Shown here: positions 672-25,524 of the stretch, one piece after another
How positions within the stretch are numbered: the first letter of the stretch is position 1
Layout of the letters: every line of letters starts with the position of its first letter
Origin: a virus
Reading direction: 5' to 3' (one strand)
IMG/VR virus record: IMGVR_UViG_3300035698_021798
Coordinates: 1 to 45,059 of that record
Length of the DNA stretch: 45,059 nucleotides
Made by a program: the position numbers and the translations under genes
The notes under the pieces: model-generated
The model's database searches: none
What the model saw: the letters and a program-made list of their open reading frames with translations, nothing else
Told to the model about the DNA's origin: nothing

Positions 672-980
672 TCATATTTTGATTTTATCCTTTTTAAAGA
701 AGCAGTAGTATTTCGACTCTTCGGCAAAGAGACGAATGATCTCCGGATAGGCTTTTTCAAATAATGGTTTTTTAGGGAGAAGATTGTATGCTATTTTAGA
801 ATAGTGCTGAAGCCAGATCTGAGCGCGTTTGTGCTTTATGATCTGAGAGGTTGCGTTGAACACTTGATCTGTGAGAGCGATCTTGAGACGCGAGTCGAAC
901 GACCCATGAATGAACTCAAGGAGATTGAGGCGCTGAGATTCTGAGAGGGCTGATTTTGCAGGTTGTGTTGTTGCGTTCAT
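672..980 (-). CDS. hypothetical protein, 102 aa
   Basis: The start ATG overlaps the stop of the receiver-domain gene upstream (TAATG), so translation is probably coupled. The product has a polar N-terminus (about 15 residues), a helical middle and a basic tail ending KKDKIKI. I see no motif and do not recognise the family. It is cotranscribed with the zinc-finger/receiver gene, so a joint role is possible but unproven. Confidence 0.6.
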   Translation of the reverse strand: MNATTQPAKSALSESQRLNLLEFIHGSFDSRLKIALTDQVFNATSQIIKHKRAQIWLQHYSKIAYNLLPKKPLFEKAYPEIIRLFAEESKYYCFFKKDKIKI

Positions 981-1585
981 TATAAGTAATCCTTTATGTG
1001 GGTGATGTCCGTTTTATCTATAATGGTGCATGGTCTGTTGATGATGCGCTGGAGCTCTTTTGCGCCGACACTGTTTGATGTGTGAATTATGATCTTGAAA
1101 GTGTTGTCCATTCTTGCAATGGCGTACGCGATGGGCTCGGTTGTCAGCTTAGGGTCCATGTTTGACATTTGATAATCGAGAATCACATAATCGATTGCAG
1201 TGTTTGGATCTGTGAGGTGTTGCAAGGCTTCTCTGTTTGTTGTTGCAGGAATGACAGTGTCCTGTTTGAGTTTACGAAGGTAATAATCTTGTATGGCTTG
1301 ATCATCATCAACAACTAATATGGTGTGTGACGATACTCGGATCAATTCATTGGTGTTAAGTTCTTGACCATCTGCAAGACGTACGAAGTTCGGAGATAAG
1401 ATTTCAGTTACGGTATAGAGATCATCAGAGACTCCGCCTTGAATACAAACCTTAGACCATTTACGGATCACCATGTCGTTTCGATCTAACGCAAATTGAA
1501 TCATGAATCCGGTTCCTTTACACGCATCGCAATTCCTTGTTCTATCTAATTGACCATTGCATACCGGACACTTTGTGTCGCTCAT
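980..1585 (-). CDS. zinc-finger protein fused to a response-regulator receiver domain
   Basis: Residues 6-26 hold two CxxC pairs (C6, C9, C19, C22) in the CxxCxG...CxxCKGTG pattern of DnaJ-type zinc fingers. Residues about 38-84 look like a small SH3/KOW-like beta module. Residues about 87-201 form a receiver domain: the acidic cluster D93-D95, the phosphoacceptor D137 in YVILDYQM, T169/S170 in IIHTS, and K191 in IIDKTD all stand where receivers need them. The domain should therefore be able to take a phosphoryl group from a histidine kinase, but no kinase or DNA-binding output domain is encoded. It belongs to the first genes read from the leftward promoter, so it may tap host two-component signalling early in infection (inference). 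Confidence 0.72.
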   Translation of the reverse strand: MSDTKCPVCNGQLDRTRNCDACKGTGFMIQFALDRNDMVIRKWSKVCIQGGVSDDLYTVTEILSPNFVRLADGQELNTNELIRVSSHTILVVDDDQAIQDYYLRKLKQDTVIPATTNREALQHLTDPNTAIDYVILDYQMSNMDPKLTTEPIAYAIARMDNTFKIIIHTSNSVGAKELQRIINRPCTIIDKTDITHIKDYL

Positions 1586-2103: not shown

Positions 2104-2135
2104 GTATGCGTTCCTTTGATCAGTTTAGGTTGGGG

Positions 2136-2186
2136 AAATAAAAAACGAAGAGACATGAGAGGAACGAGCTCACAGTGGTCTCTTCG
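2136..2186 (-). terminator. apparent intrinsic terminator/attenuator in the early leader
   Basis: Read leftward, CGAAGAGAC (2186-2178) pairs perfectly with GTCTCTTCG (2154-2146). An inner 5-bp stem (GTGAG with CTCAT) follows after a 4-base bulge. The hairpin is followed at once by a U-rich run (TTTTTTATTT, 2145-2136). It lies between the leftward promoter and the first gene, so it would cut transcription before the gene unless read through. The apical loop is complementary to an upstream leader segment. Confidence 0.55.
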
Positions 2187-2254
2187 GGAATAAATAAAAA
2201 CTCTCCTCGCCCAGAGTCTTTTGATTGATTAGATTTGAACTGCCTGCTCGTTCC
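2161..2254 (-). promoter_or_regulatory. long-range pairing between leader and terminator loop (pseudoknot topology)
   Basis: GGAACGAGC (leftward RNA, 2254-2246) is perfectly complementary to GCTCGTTCC (2169-2161). The second element is the apical loop of the terminator hairpin at 2146-2186. The order of the four arms makes an H-type pseudoknot, or two exclusive folds. This could set how often transcription passes the terminator. Pairing is seen directly; function is inferred. Confidence 0.5.
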
Positions 2255-2297
2255 GCTGTTCATTTGATTTGTCCTGTCTTTATTTAATTACATCTAA

Positions 2298-2326
2298 AGT
2301 ATAACAAGTATTTTTCGCGCTGTCAA
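2298..2326 (-). promoter_or_regulatory. strong leftward sigma70-type promoter
   Basis: On the minus strand TTGACA (2326-2321) and TATACT (2303-2298) are separated by exactly 17 bases. The -35 is perfect and the -10 differs from consensus by one base. Transcription would begin near 2291 and run left through a leader of about 190 nt into the early genes. Host RNA polymerase should recognise it without phage factors. Confidence 0.8.
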
Positions 2327-10057: not shown

Positions 10058-11095
10058 ATGTTGACAGATAGACAGAACAAAACAGTCGAATACATTGGCA
10101 AGCAAGTAAATCGCAAGACGAGAGAGGCGAACGACAAGGTGTGGAAGAGAAACATCCTTCTCAACAAATCTCTTTATATTCAGGGGAACCCTTTACCAAA
10201 AGGACTCATCGCTTATTTAGTGGGAGCGGGTCCAAGCTTAGATAAGAATGTGGAAGATTTAAAAGAAGTAGGATCTCGTGGAGCTGTCGTCGGAATTGAC
10301 GCAAATCTCCGATATCTTTTGCAACATAAGATCTCGCCGGAGTATTGTGTAAGCCTTGACGCATCGAATAAGATCTGGAAGATGGTGAAGCCTGTTATTC
10401 AATACACAAAGAATATAACGCTCGTCGCTAACATAGCGTCGAACCCAAAATTGATCAAGAATTGGCTCGGTCCTATTTTCTTTTTCAATTCAGTTCATCC
10501 TCGCATTGCAAGCAAGTCAGAAGAGTTTTTCGCAAGCTCTCGATACGCTGTTGCAAAGAAAGATGTCAAAGCGGGAGAGGAATTGATATTTGACAAAAAC
10601 TATCGACTTGTTTTTCCGGGGGTTTTGATTGAGTTACCGTGCGGGGGAAATGTAACAACTACCGCGCACGCTTTTTGCATGCAAGTTTTAAAAGCACAAA
10701 ATATTGCTTTGGTTGGTCTTGATTGTAGCTGGGAAAATGATAGTCATTTTTATGCAGGGCAGGAGCACGGAGCTAACATCAGAGCGCGGGTATTGAATGA
10801 GCAACTTCTCACGCATCTCGATGGAAACAAGAAGCGCGTGCGAACCAACTTCAGTATGCATTCATTTAAGTCATGGCATGAACAGGTTGCGCTTCAGCAA
10901 CCGTATACATGCATCAACGCTACTGAGGGCGGCATCGTAGGTATCGACGATAAAGGAAATCAAGAGCCCTTCATCGGCTTTGCGCCACTTAAAGAAGTAA
11001 TCGCGAACTATTCACCCAAGAATGACAAAATAAAGCGTGAAATCAAATTCCCTAAAGCTAAAAGGGAGCGGAAATCCGCAAAGGTAGAACAATGA
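10058..11095 (+). CDS. Maf/DUF115-type glycosyltransferase-like protein (copy 1)
   Basis: Residues 55-64 read VGAGPSLDKN, the nucleotide-binding signature of the MAF_flag10/DUF115 family. ISPEYCVSLDAS (92-103), GPIFFFNSV (about 138-146), CGGNVTTTAHAF with VGLDCSW (about 195-225) and INATEGG near 288-294 are further family blocks. Family members move CMP-activated pseudaminic or legionaminic acid onto Ser/Thr of flagellin. The archaeal relative MptE is a pterin diphosphokinase, so the annotation could also read that way. A CMP-sugar synthetase and a NeuB homologue in the same operon favour sugar transfer. The C-terminal about 25 residues are a basic tail. It overlaps copy 2 by 4 bases. Confidence 0.75.
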   Translation: MLTDRQNKTVEYIGKQVNRKTREANDKVWKRNILLNKSLYIQGNPLPKGLIAYLVGAGPSLDKNVEDLKEVGSRGAVVGIDANLRYLLQHKISPEYCVSLDASNKIWKMVKPVIQYTKNITLVANIASNPKLIKNWLGPIFFFNSVHPRIASKSEEFFASSRYAVAKKDVKAGEELIFDKNYRLVFPGVLIELPCGGNVTTTAHAFCMQVLKAQNIALVGLDCSWENDSHFYAGQEHGANIRARVLNEQLLTHLDGNKKRVRTNFSMHSFKSWHEQVALQQPYTCINATEGGIVGIDDKGNQEPFIGFAPLKEVIANYSPKNDKIKREIKFPKAKRERKSAKVEQ

Positions 11096-11913
11096 AAGAC
11101 TCAGTTGAATCACGAACCATGCGAACACTTGCGAGGATGAAAGACATTTGGGAGGCGAATATCGTCGCAAACAAACCTCTCATCAAGCAGGATGCGAGTG
11201 TTTTATGGAATGACTTTGAGAAGATCGATGGTATCTTAATTGCTGCGGGCGCAAGTTTAGCAAAATCAATACCGCAGATCGCTGAGAGAGCTCGGTCTTC
11301 GATACGCACAGAGATATGCGCTGTTGATATGGCTGCAAAATATTTGATTGACAATGGGATCCGCCCTGACTACGTGGTGTGCTGCGAGGGAAGAGCGGAA
11401 GCAGTGAAAATGTTTGATTTTGATTCAACGATGCCTTTGATTTGCGATGTAGCAACACATCCAGAGATCGTTAAAAACTGGAAAGGACCGATCTTCTTTT
11501 TCGTTATAACTAATTTTTGTATTGATTTAGATAATGATCGACAAACATTCATTGAGCGCCATCGAAAATTAAGTGGGGTGGCGACTTCATTAGTAGTAGG
11601 CGGAAATGTAGGCTCAGCTGGATTGTCGTTTTTGCTTTCAGTTAGGAACTGCAAAAATGTTCACCTCTATGGACATGATTTTTCATGGGAAAAAGGTGGT
11701 GACTTTTATTGTGGAGGAGTTAGAAAAGAAATGGCTCAGAGAAGAGTTGACACAGAAACAAAAGCAGGAACTTTGTATGAGAAAAGAGACATGCACGGAA
11801 ACGACGTATTGACCAATATGAGTTTTGAGACATTCCTTGATTGGTACAAAGAAGTTATGCGGATGTATCCGGATGTTATTATAAATCATACGAATGCTGG
11901 GTTGTTATATTAA
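11092..11913 (+). CDS. Maf/DUF115-type glycosyltransferase-like protein (copy 2)
   Basis: A 273-residue relative of the gene before it. The glycine-rich loop is altered to AAGASLAKS (51-59) where copies 1 and 3 have GAGPSLDKN. The later blocks are kept: IRPDYVVCCEG (about 89-99), NWKGPIFFF (about 128-136), VGGNVGSAGLSF and LYGHDFSWE (about 167-200). The divergent loop may mean a different donor or a non-catalytic partner subunit. The start overlaps the stop of copy 1 and the stop lies just before the capsid gene, so it is made with the capsid. Substrate is inferred. Confidence 0.7.
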   Translation: MKDSVESRTMRTLARMKDIWEANIVANKPLIKQDASVLWNDFEKIDGILIAAGASLAKSIPQIAERARSSIRTEICAVDMAAKYLIDNGIRPDYVVCCEGRAEAVKMFDFDSTMPLICDVATHPEIVKNWKGPIFFFVITNFCIDLDNDRQTFIERHRKLSGVATSLVVGGNVGSAGLSFLLSVRNCKNVHLYGHDFSWEKGGDFYCGGVRKEMAQRRVDTETKAGTLYEKRDMHGNDVLTNMSFETFLDWYKEVMRMYPDVIINHTNAGLLY

Positions 11914-13439: not shown

Positions 13440-13760
13440 ATGTCTAAGATAATAACAAGACACACTACACTGGATCCAAAGATCGCTGAGCTCGAGAATT
13501 TAGTTGTATCATTTATTGACAGAGCAATAAAATTTGACATCGAGCTTGGGCGATCAAAAGTTAATTTCTTTTCGTCAGATTATGAGAGCGTCGCGAAAGA
13601 TATAGATCAGTTTAGAAAAAAAGGGTTTCGAGTATTTATGGGTGGGGGAAATATTTTCTTTTTTAAATTAAAAAAGAAGTTAGCTGGCACCAAAGCGATT
13701 TGCATACAAGCTCGGGGCATGGCAAGGCGTAAAATTCTAATCAAGGAGATGACTCAATGA
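13440..13760 (+). CDS. hypothetical protein, 106 aa
   Basis: Starts 2 bases after the preceding stop and overlaps the CMP-sugar synthetase gene by 4 bases. The predicted fold is mixed alpha/beta, with VSFIDRAIKFDIELG as a helix and a basic C-terminus (ARGMARRKILIKEM). A GGGNIFFFKLKKK turn lies near residue 67. No family is recognised. Coupling to the sugar genes may be no more than operon packing. Confidence 0.55.
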   Translation: MSKIITRHTTLDPKIAELENLVVSFIDRAIKFDIELGRSKVNFFSSDYESVAKDIDQFRKKGFRVFMGGGNIFFFKLKKKLAGTKAICIQARGMARRKILIKEMTQ

Positions 13761-14473
13761 TCTATTCGTTGATTCCAGCAAAGATGCATTCAAGAAGACT
13801 ACCGAACAAGAACACATTTTCATATATGCTCGGAGACAAGCCCCTCATCGCTCACACCATCGAAGCTGTCAGTAAGGCTGGGCTGCGTCCGATCGTATTC
13901 ACTGATGAGCCCAATATAAAAAACACCTATGGTGCCACGATCGCTCAGCGACCGGCAGAAACAACGCTTCCGCGCGCGACCATGCGCGAGGTGATATGTG
14001 CATTCATCAAGCACATCGACGCAAAACCAACCGACACAATAGTCGTCACATACCTGACATGCCCTTTTAGGTCCTCAACAAGTATCGGGCACGCACTTCA
14101 GCAGTACACATACTCTCAAAGCAACAGCTTGCAGTCACTAACAAAGGTTGATTATCGTCCCTATGGACTGATGCGCCGCAAGTATGAGCATGAGTTTGAG
14201 TGCGTATTGCCTCAGGGAGGAATCTATCAGCAACAGAATACTCCACCGCTTTACAAAGCGAACGGAGCGATCTATATTTTTGGGGTCTCAGAGTTAGAGA
14301 AATTAAACGATCAGTTGTTTAATGATAAGACTATCGGGTATGTATTAGATGATTGTGAGGGATTAGATCTCGATACGGATCTCGACTGCATGCTTGCAGA
14401 GAAAATACTTGAGAGGAGGGCTTGTGAGAATTCTGCTGATAAATTGTCCGGTACGCGAATCTGCGAAGCCTAA
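13757..14473 (+). CDS. neuA: CMP-nonulosonate (sialic acid-type) cytidylyltransferase
   Basis: Activates a nonulosonic acid with CTP to give the CMP-sugar used by glycosyltransferases. IPAKMHSRRLPNKN (6-19) is the CTP-binding signature of the NeuA/KdsB/PseF fold. TYLTCPFR (98-105) replaces the usual QPTSPLR. NGAIYIF (169-175) and GLDLDTDLD (202-210) supply the late substrate and magnesium sites. At 238 residues it has normal length. Which nine-carbon sugar it uses cannot be told from sequence. It opens a five-gene overlapping cassette and overlaps the radical SAM gene by 50 bases. Confidence 0.85.
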   Translation: MIYSLIPAKMHSRRLPNKNTFSYMLGDKPLIAHTIEAVSKAGLRPIVFTDEPNIKNTYGATIAQRPAETTLPRATMREVICAFIKHIDAKPTDTIVVTYLTCPFRSSTSIGHALQQYTYSQSNSLQSLTKVDYRPYGLMRRKYEHEFECVLPQGGIYQQQNTPPLYKANGAIYIFGVSELEKLNDQLFNDKTIGYVLDDCEGLDLDTDLDCMLAEKILERRACENSADKLSGTRICEA

Positions 14474-15683
14474 TCTCGTTCCTTTAGGGGTTGGATATAT
14501 TGCAAGTGCATTAAGAGAGGCGAAGCATGAAGTAGATATCCTTGATATTAATGCGCTGCGGTGGAATAAAGATCGAGTTGAGTACTGGCTCAGAATGGTA
14601 CACAAGGATTTCGATATGTTTGGGATCTCTGGAATCATAACAACGTATGCATATCAGAAATGGCTCATCTATCTCATAAAGAGTATGTCTTTCCGCCCTA
14701 TTGTATGTGGTGGAGGATGTGCATCTGTGGCAGGGGACCTGTTGCTTGAGCACGGAGCGAATAAAATCATCAAAGGTGCTGGAGAGAATGAAATGCTTGA
14801 GTACGTTGGCAGCAATCTCCGGTATAATAATATAGATGAGATCCCATTCCCAGCTTGGCGTGGCTTTGATATGAGCACATACCTTCCAAATGCGATTTGG
14901 GGTGCAGACAGTGGGAACAGCTCGAATGTTGCAATACACGAAGATATGAAGGGCATCAGACGAAGTGTGAACGTGGTAACGAGTCGAGGCTGCCCTTTCA
15001 AGTGTCATTTTTGTTATGACCTATTCGGACAGGTGTATCAGCAAAGAAGTGTGGAGAATGTTATCGCTGAACTAGTCGAGTTGAAAAATAAATACATAAT
15101 CGATTTCGTTGGATTCGTCGATGACAATATGTTTGTCAGCAAAAAGTGGGTGTTGAAGTTCTGTGCGCAAATGAAAGAGCTGAATCTGCTATGGGGTTGC
15201 CATGCGCGCGTGAACGAAGTTGATGAAGAGATCCTCTCCGCAGCGTTTGACTCAGGCTGCCGATGGATCGGATATGGTATCGAAAGCGGATCTCAAAAGA
15301 TGTTAAATTTAATGAATAAGAAAGCGTCCGTTGATCAAGGACAGAAAGCAATCGAGATGACGAGAGATGCAGGGATATACCCAAACACTTCGTTCATTTA
15401 TGGATTTCCGGGAGAATCAAAAAGTACCGTCGATGAAACAATAAGTTTTTGCAATTCATTGAGGATAAAACCAAGTTTCTTTTTTGCAATTCCATATCCG
15501 GGATCAGAGCTTTTTAAATCAAATTCATTAAAGATAGTGTTGAGGATGGGCGGGTTTGAAAGATTTATTGAGCAACTAGGAGACGCAAAGGACTTCGTCA
15601 TTAATCTGACGGATATGCCTGACACTAAGTTTTTTAAGATGAAAGAGCATTTAAACAAAGGGGTGAATCAATGCACGCATTAA
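14424..15683 (+). CDS. B12-binding-type radical SAM enzyme
   Basis: GTG 14424 is chosen because AGGAGGG sits 3-4 bases upstream. Residues 1-130 form the cobalamin-binding-like Rossmann domain (LGVGYIASALREAKHEVDIL, then GGGCASVAGD and GAGENE). Residues about 180-380 are the radical SAM barrel with C190, C194 and C197 (CPFKCHFC) for the 4Fe-4S cluster, and YGIESGSQ and FIYGFPGES as later strands. Such enzymes methylate or rearrange unactivated carbons. In this cassette it probably tailors the sugar or its precursor. The exact reaction is unknown, and the classical DxHxxG cobalamin motif is not evident. Confidence 0.82.
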   Translation: MRILLINCPVRESAKPNLVPLGVGYIASALREAKHEVDILDINALRWNKDRVEYWLRMVHKDFDMFGISGIITTYAYQKWLIYLIKSMSFRPIVCGGGCASVAGDLLLEHGANKIIKGAGENEMLEYVGSNLRYNNIDEIPFPAWRGFDMSTYLPNAIWGADSGNSSNVAIHEDMKGIRRSVNVVTSRGCPFKCHFCYDLFGQVYQQRSVENVIAELVELKNKYIIDFVGFVDDNMFVSKKWVLKFCAQMKELNLLWGCHARVNEVDEEILSAAFDSGCRWIGYGIESGSQKMLNLMNKKASVDQGQKAIEMTRDAGIYPNTSFIYGFPGESKSTVDETISFCNSLRIKPSFFFAIPYPGSELFKSNSLKIVLRMGGFERFIEQLGDAKDFVINLTDMPDTKFFKMKEHLNKGVNQCTH

Positions 15684-16258
15684 AAGTTGTGCCGAATATG
15701 GAAAGGATCTATATCGACAGAAAAGACTTCTACGGAAAAGCAACTGTCAAGCGCCATCTGGAAAGATATCGGTGGGTGCTCAAGAATACAAAGGAATGCG
15801 ACATCGCTTTGGATCTCTGCTGTGGAAGTGGGTACGGTACGCACATGATTTCAAAGAAAGCGATGAACATTGTTGGGGTTGAAATTGATGAGACTGCGGT
15901 CGCGTTTGCAAAGCAAACATACAAAGAACGAAACCTTGAATACCGGAGAACAGATCTCAATGATCCATTCTCCCTCGGAGAACAAGCGAGATTTGATCTG
16001 GTTATATGGGTAGAGGCGATTGAGCATTTCACGCCTGAGCAGATCTCAGATATTTTACCCAGAATTAAGGATCTCCTCTCTCCTGACGGTAAACTATTGA
16101 TCACCACACCAGACCTTGCCTCGTCGGATGGTATGAACAAGTACCATCTCCACGAATATAGCGTGGACGAGCTCAAGGCGTTGATTGGTTATTATTTCAC
16201 AATAAAGAGCACTACTGTGAAAGAAAAATTCATCTATATGATAGCGAGGCAGAAATGA
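15671..16258 (+). CDS. class I SAM-dependent methyltransferase
   Basis: ALDLCCGSGYG (46-56) is the SAM-binding motif I and VGVEIDE follows as the acidic second strand. LVIWVEAIEHF is motif IV-like and LSPDGKLLITTP the strand after it. The N-terminus (KRHLERYRWVLKN) is typical of methyltransferases in glycan clusters. It overlaps the radical SAM gene by 13 bases and the NeuB-like gene by 4. It may O- or N-methylate the sugar made by the cassette (inference). A methyl cap would change recognition by host or predator lectins. Confidence 0.8.
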   Translation: MHALKVVPNMERIYIDRKDFYGKATVKRHLERYRWVLKNTKECDIALDLCCGSGYGTHMISKKAMNIVGVEIDETAVAFAKQTYKERNLEYRRTDLNDPFSLGEQARFDLVIWVEAIEHFTPEQISDILPRIKDLLSPDGKLLITTPDLASSDGMNKYHLHEYSVDELKALIGYYFTIKSTTVKEKFIYMIARQK

Positions 16259-17142
16259 ACACATCATTCAGAATAAACCAACACATCATCGATGAACAGC
16301 ATTCGGCATACATCATTGCAGAGATCGGTATCAATCACAATGGCAGCATGGACCGTGCGTTCGAGATGATTGACGAGGCGAAGAGGTGTGGTGTTGATTG
16401 CGTGAAGTTTCAGAAACGCACGTTGTCAGCAATATACCCAAAGGACGTTCTCGATAATCCGCATTTGCATTCAATAGGTCTTGGCGTATATATTCCGATC
16501 CTGAAAGCTTCAGAGTTTACCTATGAACAGCACATTGAATTGAAAGCGTATTGTGAATCAATGGGGTTGGATTATTTATGCACACCATTTGATGTTGCAT
16601 CAGCTGTGATGCTGGAGATCATTGGTGTTTGCGCATATAAGATAGGTTCGGTGTCGTTACCGAACAGAGAGTTGCTCGATCGTATAATCTCATGTGGAAA
16701 GCCGATCATCTTATCGACAGGCATGTCAAAGTGGGAGACTATCCTCGAGGTGCACGAATATTTAAAAGCTAAGAAATCTCAGTACATGTTTCTGCATTGT
16801 GTGTCAACATATCCGGTAGATTTTAAAGACTGCAATCTTCGGATGATCGCTAAACTCAAAGAGCTAGGTGTTCCTGTCGGGTACAGCGGGCATGAGAGAG
16901 GCATTGAGATCTCAGTGTGTGCCGCTGCAATGGGCGCATGCATCATTGAAAGGCACTTCACTCTCGATAGAACTATGCAGGGTCCTGATCACGCTGCAAG
17001 CCTTGAGCCAACCGGTATGAAAAAGCTCGTCGAGCATATCAAGGCGTTTGAACTTGCAAAAGGCGATGGGGTTAAAAAAATAACACGCGGCGAACAAATT
17101 GTGATGGAATCTCTGGGAAGAGATCCACTGGGGGGCGAGTAA
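16255..17142 (+). CDS. neuB: NeuB-like nonulosonate synthase lacking the SAF domain
   Basis: Condenses phosphoenolpyruvate with a six-carbon amino sugar to give a nine-carbon acid. Family residues are kept along the barrel: IAEIGINHNG (21-30), VKFQKR (50-55), CTPFD, KIGSVSLPN, LSTGMS (153-158), HCVSTYP (181-187), and the metal ligands H213 in YSGHERG and H234 in IERHFT, with E232 between. Typical NeuB proteins are about 340-350 residues and end in a SAF (antifreeze-like) domain that lines the partner's active site. This one stops at 295, just after ITRGEQIVMESL. Either the domain is dispensable, or another protein supplies it. Confidence 0.87.
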   Translation: MNTSFRINQHIIDEQHSAYIIAEIGINHNGSMDRAFEMIDEAKRCGVDCVKFQKRTLSAIYPKDVLDNPHLHSIGLGVYIPILKASEFTYEQHIELKAYCESMGLDYLCTPFDVASAVMLEIIGVCAYKIGSVSLPNRELLDRIISCGKPIILSTGMSKWETILEVHEYLKAKKSQYMFLHCVSTYPVDFKDCNLRMIAKLKELGVPVGYSGHERGIEISVCAAAMGACIIERHFTLDRTMQGPDHAASLEPTGMKKLVEHIKAFELAKGDGVKKITRGEQIVMESLGRDPLGGE

Positions 17143-17999
17143 TGTATTGGGGAGCCAAGGCACGATTTCATGATCTACAAAATGTGATGATCGAACTCAA
17201 ACCGGAGATGGTTGAGTTTCATCTCACTGATAACGATGTACGAACACAATCACTCGACGAGGGAACAGTTCATCCGACGGATTACTCCATTCATCTCCCA
17301 GAATATTGGGACGGTGTAATGATAGATCCTTGCGATTTAAAAACTTTAGATAAGAATATTGAAATCTATACTCAGTGTATTGACAAGGGGTTAAGTCTTT
17401 GGAGAAGTTTTGTGACGAATTATAAACGCATGAAAGTTATTATACATCCGGGAGGCTCAACTGTTGATCAAGTGAAGTTTCCGACGGGAGGTGAAGCTGA
17501 GAAGTACAAAGCAAATCTATATGCGAGATTCAACGCGTTTGTAATAAAACTCCGATCAATTCCTCGATTCAAAGATAAGATTGAATTGCTCGTCGAGAAC
17601 ATGCCACCGTTCCCTTGGTTTTATGGTGGGCAATATTACAGCGATATATTTTGCGATCAAATAGAGGTGTATAGATATTGCAAAGCGAATGGGGTTGGTT
17701 TTTGTTTTGACATTTCTCACATGGGTTTATATTGTAATCACACAGGGAAAAACTTACTTGCTGCGATTGATATTTTAAAACCCTATATGCGCCAGATACA
17801 CATCGCTGACGCTGAGGGAACCGCTGGAGAAGGTGTTTCGATAGGATCTGGAAATATCGATTTCAAAAAAGCGATTCCTGCATTAAAGAATATTGACGCT
17901 GCGATGATCCCTGAGCAAATGTGGGGGCACAAAAATAATTATGCAGAATTTAAAAAAACAATAGATGTCTGCAATAAATATAAAAACGAAGGGGCATAA
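17142..17999 (+). CDS. sugar phosphate isomerase/epimerase-like TIM barrel
   Basis: Belongs by pattern to the xylose-isomerase-like AP endonuclease-2 superfamily. Metal-binding residues line the strand ends: H102 in IIHPGG, E152 in LLVENMP, D190 and H193 in FDISHM, H220 and D223 in IHIADAE, E258 in IPEQMWG. In a nonulosonate cassette it may prepare or epimerise the hexosamine substrate for the synthase. Its start overlaps the NeuB-like stop (TAATG). No UDP-GlcNAc 2-epimerase is present, so this protein or the host must provide the precursor. Confidence 0.75.
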   Translation: MYWGAKARFHDLQNVMIELKPEMVEFHLTDNDVRTQSLDEGTVHPTDYSIHLPEYWDGVMIDPCDLKTLDKNIEIYTQCIDKGLSLWRSFVTNYKRMKVIIHPGGSTVDQVKFPTGGEAEKYKANLYARFNAFVIKLRSIPRFKDKIELLVENMPPFPWFYGGQYYSDIFCDQIEVYRYCKANGVGFCFDISHMGLYCNHTGKNLLAAIDILKPYMRQIHIADAEGTAGEGVSIGSGNIDFKKAIPALKNIDAAMIPEQMWGHKNNYAEFKKTIDVCNKYKNEGA

Positions 18000-23875: not shown

Positions 23876-24349
23876 ATGGACGTAATAAAAGAGATGATTT
23901 ACAAAGTTATGCGTGATGATTCAGAGGCTTCCGTTGGGCTCCGTGCCTTGCTTGATCAAACCTCCACGCCTTATGGAATATATAAAGCAGATCTCCCAGA
24001 CAATATGGATTTCTCCGCAGGAGTTAAATGTGTCACAATGTTTCAATTGACCGGAGAGTTTGACACCTCCATGCCTAGAGAAAACTTTTCAACAGTTGCA
24101 AAACAAGAAACGTATCAGATAACTGCGTGGGGAGGGGATGCGCTAGTCAGCTGCGATAAGATATTGGATCGCGTACGGTATTTGCTCGAGGGGAAACATA
24201 AAACAACCGACCCAACAACCAATGCGGCGGTGTTTAGCATCAAATGTGAATGGGAAGGTCCGGACCAGCGCGATATCGACTATCGCGTAAACCATAAATC
24301 AGCGAGGTTCCGAGTATGGCTACAAGATTTGACACTTGCAAAGATGTAG
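23876..24349 (+). CDS. tail terminator-like protein
   Basis: A 157-residue protein in the terminator slot, between the gp10-like and tube genes. The N-terminal helix (IKEMIYKVMRDD) and the later ETYQITAWGGDALVSCDKILDRVRYLL pattern recall DUF3168 and related terminators, which cap the tube and set its end. The call rests on position and this pattern. A glycosyltransferase gene starts 34 bases before its stop. Confidence 0.62.
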   Translation: MDVIKEMIYKVMRDDSEASVGLRALLDQTSTPYGIYKADLPDNMDFSAGVKCVTMFQLTGEFDTSMPRENFSTVAKQETYQITAWGGDALVSCDKILDRVRYLLEGKHKTTDPTTNAAVFSIKCEWEGPDQRDIDYRVNHKSARFRVWLQDLTLAKM

Positions 24350-25524
24350 ATCTAAACACAAGAGAGGATGTTTGCACGGTGCAAGCTATGCAATCAGATA
24401 AATTTACCGATGTTGGTGATTATCCGTGCGTTGTGTTTATCCAGAAAAACACAAACGATGTCACGTGGATCAAAGTTATTGGGCGAGCTGTTTGGACCAC
24501 AGACAGGATCCGCCTGAATCGAGATCTCTATTTGGTCGAAGAGCTTATCGATGGAGTCTGTAAAGTACACCGTGATGGTTTGGAAAGTAGTTTGTTAAAG
24601 CTGCAAAACATGGGGGTCACTATTGAGAAGGGCATAAAAGTTCCGGTAAAAAACGCACTCTCTCCGGAAGATAATTTCTTTGTTGATCAGTGGGTTGGAG
24701 TGTGGACGAAAAATGTATGTGAGAATTATCATAATTTGCTTAATGGGAAATCATTGAAACATCTGAAAGGTAAATACGCAGGGACCTCAGCGATCGTCGT
24801 TGGAGCTGGACCGAGCCTTGACAAGAATATTTATGAGCTTCAAGGCATCAATGCGGTGATCATAGCTACTGACAGGGCATACAAGCCACTCCTGAACGCC
24901 GGCATAGTGCCTGATTACGTTATAAGTGTAGATTGCCATGACACATTGATCATGGAGTATCTGGATAAAGTGGACAGCTCAGCGCACACGCTGATCTTAA
25001 ACTCTGCCTCAGATTATCAGATCTCAAAAGCGTGGAAAGGTGAGATCCTTTACTATAACATGAGCCACGCGGGGATGCAGTTTTGTGACAAAGTTTTACC
25101 ATTTTTATTTCCGAATTTGATGGCGGTCGCAAACGCTGGGTGTGTTGCAAACACCGCTGTGATAATAGCGAAGTGGCTTGGGTGTAGCAGATCGATATTA
25201 GTTGGTTGTGATTTCTCATACCCAGAGAAACGAATGTCTTGTAATATGTACGACTGGATTGATGGCAATTTTAAACAGCTCGCAGTTGATGAAGAGGAGC
25301 GGTTTAACAAGAGATCCGGAAAGATTAAAAAGAATGGGATATATACCTATCCACCGTTTTTAGATTACGAGGACACCATGAAAGTTCTGAGCAAGTGTCA
25401 AGACTTTGAAGTGATCAACGCAACAGAAGGTGGAATCATTGACAGCTTTCCGATGATGGAATTAAAAGACGCAAAGAAAAAATATTGTACTAAACCTGTT
25501 GGAGACTTAACGAGTAAAATTTAA
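24316..25524 (+). CDS. Maf/DUF115-type glycosyltransferase-like protein (copy 3)
   Basis: The longest of the three (402 aa). The first about 145 residues are an extra domain with beta-rich pieces (WIKVIGRAVWTTDRIRLNRD) not found in copies 1 and 2. IVVGAGPSLDKN (about 157-168), VPDYVISVDCHD (about 197-208), GCVANTAVIIAKWLG, VGCDFSYPE and VINATEGGI (about 375-383) are the family blocks. It lies between the tail terminator and the tube gene, 17 bases before the tube start, so it is likely to act on a tail protein and share the CMP-sugar made by the 13,757-17,999 cassette (inference). Confidence 0.75.
   Translation: MATRFDTCKDVDLNTREDVCTVQAMQSDKFTDVGDYPCVVFIQKNTNDVTWIKVIGRAVWTTDRIRLNRDLYLVEELIDGVCKVHRDGLESSLLKLQNMGVTIEKGIKVPVKNALSPEDNFFVDQWVGVWTKNVCENYHNLLNGKSLKHLKGKYAGTSAIVVGAGPSLDKNIYELQGINAVIIATDRAYKPLLNAGIVPDYVISVDCHDTLIMEYLDKVDSSAHTLILNSASDYQISKAWKGEILYYNMSHAGMQFCDKVLPFLFPNLMAVANAGCVANTAVIIAKWLGCSRSILVGCDFSYPEKRMSCNMYDWIDGNFKQLAVDEEERFNKRSGKIKKNGIYTYPPFLDYEDTMKVLSKCQDFEVINATEGGIIDSFPMMELKDAKKKYCTKPVGDLTSKI

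Follow-up and report, generated by a model that had tools for sequence, protein, structure and literature searches.

We confirmed, in the leader of a putative early operon of a virus, a terminator-like hairpin whose loop is complementary to a segment lying upstream in the same leader. We read the arrangement as a transcription attenuator or switch of the early minus-strand operon, in which the upstream segment (arm a) would oppose the terminator, a tentative reading that we find plausible rather than probable. The element would then be a leader attenuator of a broadly known kind, set apart by having the terminator loop as the pairing partner. If real, it would gate what seems to be the entire early operon by RNA alone, with ribosome position read out through the terminator loop and not the stem, and would offer an easily testable design linking phage gene expression to host translation.

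Layout of the leader and of the putative early operon

The 45-kb stretch of DNA analyzed here (45,059 nucleotides, hereafter the window) comes from a viral metagenome record, and its genes include those for a terminase, DNA polymerase A and a primase-like protein; the virus is most readily taken to be a tailed phage. Genes on the minus strand occupy 33–45 kb and 0.3–2.1 kb of the window, and a 128-codon minus-strand ORF spans the joined ends (1–279 and 45059). No end repeat was found in the window. The end-spanning ORF and the layout of the minus-strand genes indirectly suggest that the window is a circularly permuted, near-complete genome, with an early operon that starts at the promoter listed below; the operon would be early as judged by its gene content. 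The features of the leader, in the direction of transcription, are as follows.

2298–2326, minus strand: sigma-70-type promoter, TTGACA-17-TATACT, with an extended -10 TG (consensus match only, 11/12)
2272–2275, minus strand: Shine-Dalgarno sequence AGGA, located 8 nt upstream of the leader ORF's ATG (from sequence)
2120–2263, minus strand: leader ORF starting with ATG, 47 codons (MNSGTSRQFKSNQSKDSGRGEFLFIPEETTVSSFLSCLFVFYFPNLN), holding all RNA arms
2246–2254, minus strand: arm a, GGAACGAGC, codons 4–6 of the leader ORF; single occurrence in the leader
2239–2243, minus strand: inner extension of arm a, GCAGT (complementarity and folding)
2196–2221, minus strand: weak nested hairpin with a U-rich 3' side, -8.0 kcal/mol, a possible pause hairpin (folding)
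2178–2186, minus strand: 5' arm of the terminator-like hairpin, CGAAGAGAC, in a perfect 9-bp stem
2172–2176, minus strand: inner extension of arm a', ACTGT (complementarity and folding)
2161–2169, minus strand: arm a', GCTCGTTCC, within the loop of the terminator; single occurrence in the leader
2146–2154, minus strand: 3' arm of the terminator-like hairpin, GTCTCTTCG, in the same perfect stem
2140–2145, minus strand: U tract, six U, then AUUU (from sequence)
2109–2115, minus strand: AGGAACG, Shine-Dalgarno region for the first early gene; its 7 nt can pair with CGTTCCT in the terminator loop
1588–2103, minus strand: first early gene, an ORF of 171 aa to which no family was assigned

An earlier note on this DNA had proposed a leader attenuator lying between a strong promoter and the first early gene. 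The promoter holds up, as does the 9-bp hairpin with a U-rich tail, and the geometry is the part of the attenuator reading that our results support: the sole minus-strand promoter match of at least 9/12 within 2100–2930 is followed by the only strong terminator-like hairpin of the window and then by the first early gene, with no further promoter of at least 9/12 in between. From the position of the promoter, transcription is expected to start near 2291. A search for a boxA-like site returned none that was convincing.

A terminator-like hairpin with a long loop

The hairpin lies on the minus strand, approximately 105 nt downstream of the expected transcription start. It combines a perfect stem (2186–2178/2154–2146) with a 23-nt loop and the tail TTTTTTATTT, at -15.3 kcal/mol, and it is unique in the window on both strands when defined by a perfect stem of at least 9 bp, a loop of at most 30 nt and a T-rich tail. 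Dinucleotide shuffling of the 188-nt leader produced a terminator-like hairpin of equal quality in 0.2% of cases, and control phage DNA (87 control loci) averaged about 2.2 of them per 45 kb. The terminator-like hairpin is probably real, and transcription is predicted to terminate there. Efficient intrinsic terminators generally have loops shorter than these 23 nt; within this loop, a weak inner stem can form.

The terminator loop is complementary to an upstream segment

The earlier note had also described the apical loop as perfectly complementary to an upstream segment. The match itself is perfect over 9 nt (arm a', 2169–2161, with arm a, 2254–2246), and it makes up part of the 23-nt loop rather than the loop as such. 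Past a 2 × 2 mismatch, the a:a' helix gains five pairs, one of them G-U, so that 14 of 16 positions pair, 13 of them as Watson–Crick pairs. Thus extended, arm a' takes up most of the loop; a single nucleotide separates it from the 5' arm of the stem, and six separate it from the 3' arm.

How readily might such a match arise by chance? The earlier estimate of about 0.07 for a single 9-bp pairing agrees with our shuffles of the leader (188 nt, dinucleotide frequencies kept): 7.8% contained at least one, and two or more, which had been called improbable, occurred in 2.2%. The full arrangement of hairpin plus loop match appeared in none of 20,000 such shuffles. Controls on real phage DNA were less favourable: 0.8% of random 23-nt segments had a complement of at least 9 nt within the 105 nt upstream, 0.3% of random places had 13/16 complementary bases, as observed here, and 3 of 233 control phage hairpins (stem of at least 7 bp, at least five T in eight, loop of at least 9 nt) had a 9-nt complement between loop and upstream DNA. 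The energy of the a:a' duplex was matched by 0.03% of composition-matched shuffles and by 4.8% of random phage places, the latter because GC content varies in real DNA. Overall, the folding energy of the leader is ordinary (z = -0.62). Given the hairpin, the loop match is an event of roughly 1 in 100 to 1 in 300, uncorrected for the search that picked it, and the case for a pairing beyond chance is suggestive, not overwhelming.

These frequencies bear on the alternative that the leader carries an ordinary terminator, a short structured RNA or both, with a hairpin that halts some transcripts and a 9-nt loop match that is coincidental. The earlier note came from looking through a whole window for oddities; this and both the roughly 0.8% of such hairpins expected to carry a loop match and the share of leader shuffles with two or more 9-bp pairings speak for this account. 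Against it, the match reaches 13/16 bases and is placed where competition with the terminator is possible. We consider coincidence unlikely, while giving it real weight; if the loop match did arise by chance, the element is an ordinary leader terminator.

Exclusive helices or a pseudoknot

The earlier note had left the terminator as "pseudoknotted or switchable". In a nested folding model, a:a' and the terminator are exclusive helices, with probabilities of 0.999 and approximately 0.001, respectively, and with state energies of -36.5 kcal/mol (a:a') and -32.4 kcal/mol (terminator). Because arm a' is transcribed ahead of the terminator's 3' arm, a:a' has the chance to pair first; in the nested model, the probability of a:a' is 0.64 when the last transcribed base is 2164 and 0.999 when it is 2160, that is, before the terminator 3' arm emerges. 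Taken by itself, the nested model thus points to a switch in which termination is opposed by arm a, with two helices predicted to exclude each other in the transcript.

A pseudoknotted terminator, the other half of the earlier suggestion, also stands as sterically possible. Here, arm a would pair with the loop over 9 bp alongside the stem, and the pseudoknot would strengthen or slow termination or serve recognition by a ligand or a protein. Arm a' sits in the loop clear of the stem, and by geometric reasoning the linkers of 8 and 6 nt can span a 9-bp helix, which makes such a pseudoknot possible; a crude hand estimate puts the state with both helices at -37 to -42 kcal/mol. The same geometric reasoning on linkers indicates that the full 16-position a:a' helix is incompatible with the terminator stem: the leftover linkers would be too short, so the five inner a:a' pairs must open. 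The hand-estimated nature of the energies and the lack of an Rfam match to pseudoknotted riboswitches also weigh against the pseudoknot, and we rate it as a rather unlikely account that nevertheless deserves attention. Since it is sterically and energetically possible, the switch may run in either direction.

The position of arm a' also counts against the attenuator that we prefer. Unlike the pairing partner in a standard antiterminator, arm a' lies in the loop without overlapping the stem, so a:a' may leave the terminator unblocked; by the crude estimate above, moreover, the pseudoknot with both helices is about as stable as the a:a' state.

Predicted coupling to translation of a leader ORF

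The earlier note overlooked the 47-codon leader ORF. Because this ORF contains all the arms, ribosome-coupled control is the first option to consider; with a start codon and a Shine-Dalgarno sequence, but codon usage unlike that of genes, the ORF is a candidate for translation. When a ribosome footprint was masked at codons 1–11 in the nested model, the terminator formed with a probability of 0.97–0.99, and with the ribosome at codons 14–15 or 18–27 the a:a' helix stayed. On this model, ribosome position would therefore be coupled to the fold of the leader.

In the attenuator that we favour, RNA polymerase would start near the expected site and produce a leader whose arm a pairs with arm a' in the loop. 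The a:a' helix would pair first and, according to the nested model, oppose the terminator, giving read-through by default. A ribosome on the start of the leader ORF would cover arm a, leaving the loop free and the terminator able to fold; with a ribosome farther along, or none at all, a:a' would persist. Initiation of leader translation, or an RNA or protein that binds arm a, would then set the flow of polymerase into the early genes and may act as the regulatory signal. The leader might in this manner time the early operon, as had been suggested. We regard as distinctly unlikely the more specific proposal of a loop-gated early operon, in which ribosome loading on the overlapping ORF would decide whether arm a captures the terminator loop, and in which active host translation would bring about termination and impaired translation would open the early genes.

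Alternatively, the ORF might be a small protein gene heading the operon, with RNA structures that are incidental or that cause polarity only when the ORF is untranslated. The ORF has its own Shine-Dalgarno sequence, and 16 nt separate its end from the ATG that opens the first early gene, the spacing of a compact operon; an ORF of at least 47 codons with such a Shine-Dalgarno sequence occurred in 0.06% of shuffled leaders. Ribosomes trailing polymerase closely can block intrinsic terminators (PMC5021804). Against a small gene, the codon usage of the ORF scores below 99% of true-gene pieces and resembles that of a wrong frame, and its product had neither a family match nor a significant match among phage records. 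Nor does the peptide dictate the RNA pairings: if the ORF is taken as coding, synonymous draws gave 9/9 a:a' pairs in 0.005%, 9/9 stem pairs in 0.075% and both in 0 of 20,000. Pairings so seldom obtained mean that the peptide, if translated, leaves them without explanation, and we hold a small gene with incidental structures to be decidedly improbable.

Comparison with known leader systems

An Rfam search of the leader at gathering and permissive thresholds gave no gathering match and five sub-threshold chance matches only; no phage antisense RNA family, C4 (RF01695) included, was among the matches listed. Each specific known family with a testable defining feature differed from the leader in at least one such feature.

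Similar to the trp and his attenuators, the leader has a short ORF that overlaps alternative helices, and ribosome position selects the fold in the nested model. Unlike in trp and his, there is no regulatory codon run (no amino acid is repeated in a row in the leader peptide), the sign is inverted in that termination would be favoured by a ribosome at the start, and the ORF runs through the terminator.

In the pT181 and pIP501 repC/repR attenuators, an upstream segment opposes an intrinsic terminator, and antisense RNA on that segment permits the terminator (PMC4878617). The phage leader shares with them an upstream segment predicted to pair against an intrinsic terminator. However, their antiterminator ties up the 5' arm of the stem itself, whereas here the complement is wholly in the loop; and while they use antisense RNA, no opposing, plus-strand promoter-like site of at least 8/12 was found in 1951–2240.

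In the fluoride and ZTP riboswitches, a pseudoknot that forms during transcription competes with an intrinsic terminator or is invaded by it (PMC11077080, PMC10085676). The pseudoknot of the fluoride switch shares the base of the terminator stem, whereas here the loop is involved, and unlike for both riboswitches no Rfam match was obtained and no aptamer was recognised in the leader. The put RNA of phage HK022 is a structured RNA directly past a phage early promoter that affects termination (PMC9378689). Here, too, a predicted structured RNA is close downstream of a putative phage early promoter. Nonetheless, put consists of two adjacent stem-loops of approximately 70 nt, which act on polymerase and so affect terminators far away, whereas the predicted leader fold is one long-range helix plus a nested hairpin, not put-type adjacent stem-loops, with the terminator inside the structure.

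The leader also resembles two phage systems in having an early-leader segment complementary to both upstream and downstream sites. The C4 RNA of phage P1 shows the same kind of leader complementarity and early termination as phage P4. In P4 itself, an early-leader segment is complementary up- and downstream (CI RNA, seqA and seqC), with early termination (PMC4825925). Unlike P4 and P1, the window showed no sign of lysogeny among the scanned genes. A trans-acting RNA of the P4 type would be a short terminated RNA whose loop pairs with arm a or with the first-gene Shine-Dalgarno region of other leaders. The loop is indeed complementary to both an upstream site and a downstream Shine-Dalgarno sequence, as are CI RNA and seqA/seqC. 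Yet the pairing between loop and Shine-Dalgarno region (-11.9 kcal/mol) is weaker than a:a', extends over just 7 nt and may be chance; with no C4 match in Rfam and no lysogeny gene recognised among the scanned genes, we judge a trans-acting RNA very improbable. Lastly, repressor half-sites forming a DNA inverted repeat downstream of the promoter are scarcely credible: 15/19 bases of the repeat match, with arms 62 nt apart, but the arms are non-palindromic, and the rest of the window shows no enrichment of the motif (10 occurrences versus 7.7 expected, with one mismatch allowed).

Search for relatives

Relatives were sought in phage DNA, and also with the first early gene (in viral contigs, phages and genomes), with the DNA polymerase (in viral contigs), with the receiver-domain gene and with the terminase (in viral contigs and genomes, and by alignment). 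For the leader, these searches yielded a single contig, 100% identical, and no syntenic relative. The best terminase relatives (67% and less) lack the leader and carry different genes upstream. The closest of these (67%; L013, 4478–6529) has a long insertion bearing intein-like sequence near its C-terminal part, as seen by eye. A scan with the 16-nt arm returned seven contigs, one being the identical one; the other six, which did not match the window, are consistent with chance.

Other features of the window

The second early gene (980–1585, minus strand) encodes a zinc-ribbon/DnaJ-like N-terminus fused to a receiver-like domain (cREC_REC, E = 9.5e-08). Between the divergent operons lies a gene-poor region of 600 bp (2330–2928), possibly a replication origin, in which numerous imperfect repeats occur together with a pyrimidine tract and G-runs. 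The late gene block, on the plus strand, holds a nonulosonic-acid-like sugar module (13757–17999, 10058–11913 and 24316–25524) comprising genes for a cytidylyltransferase, a NeuB family protein, a radical SAM/B12 protein, a methyltransferase, a TIM barrel protein and three MptE-like (DUF115) proteins. This is unusual cargo for a phage, and possibly serves glycosylation of the virion or of the host surface.
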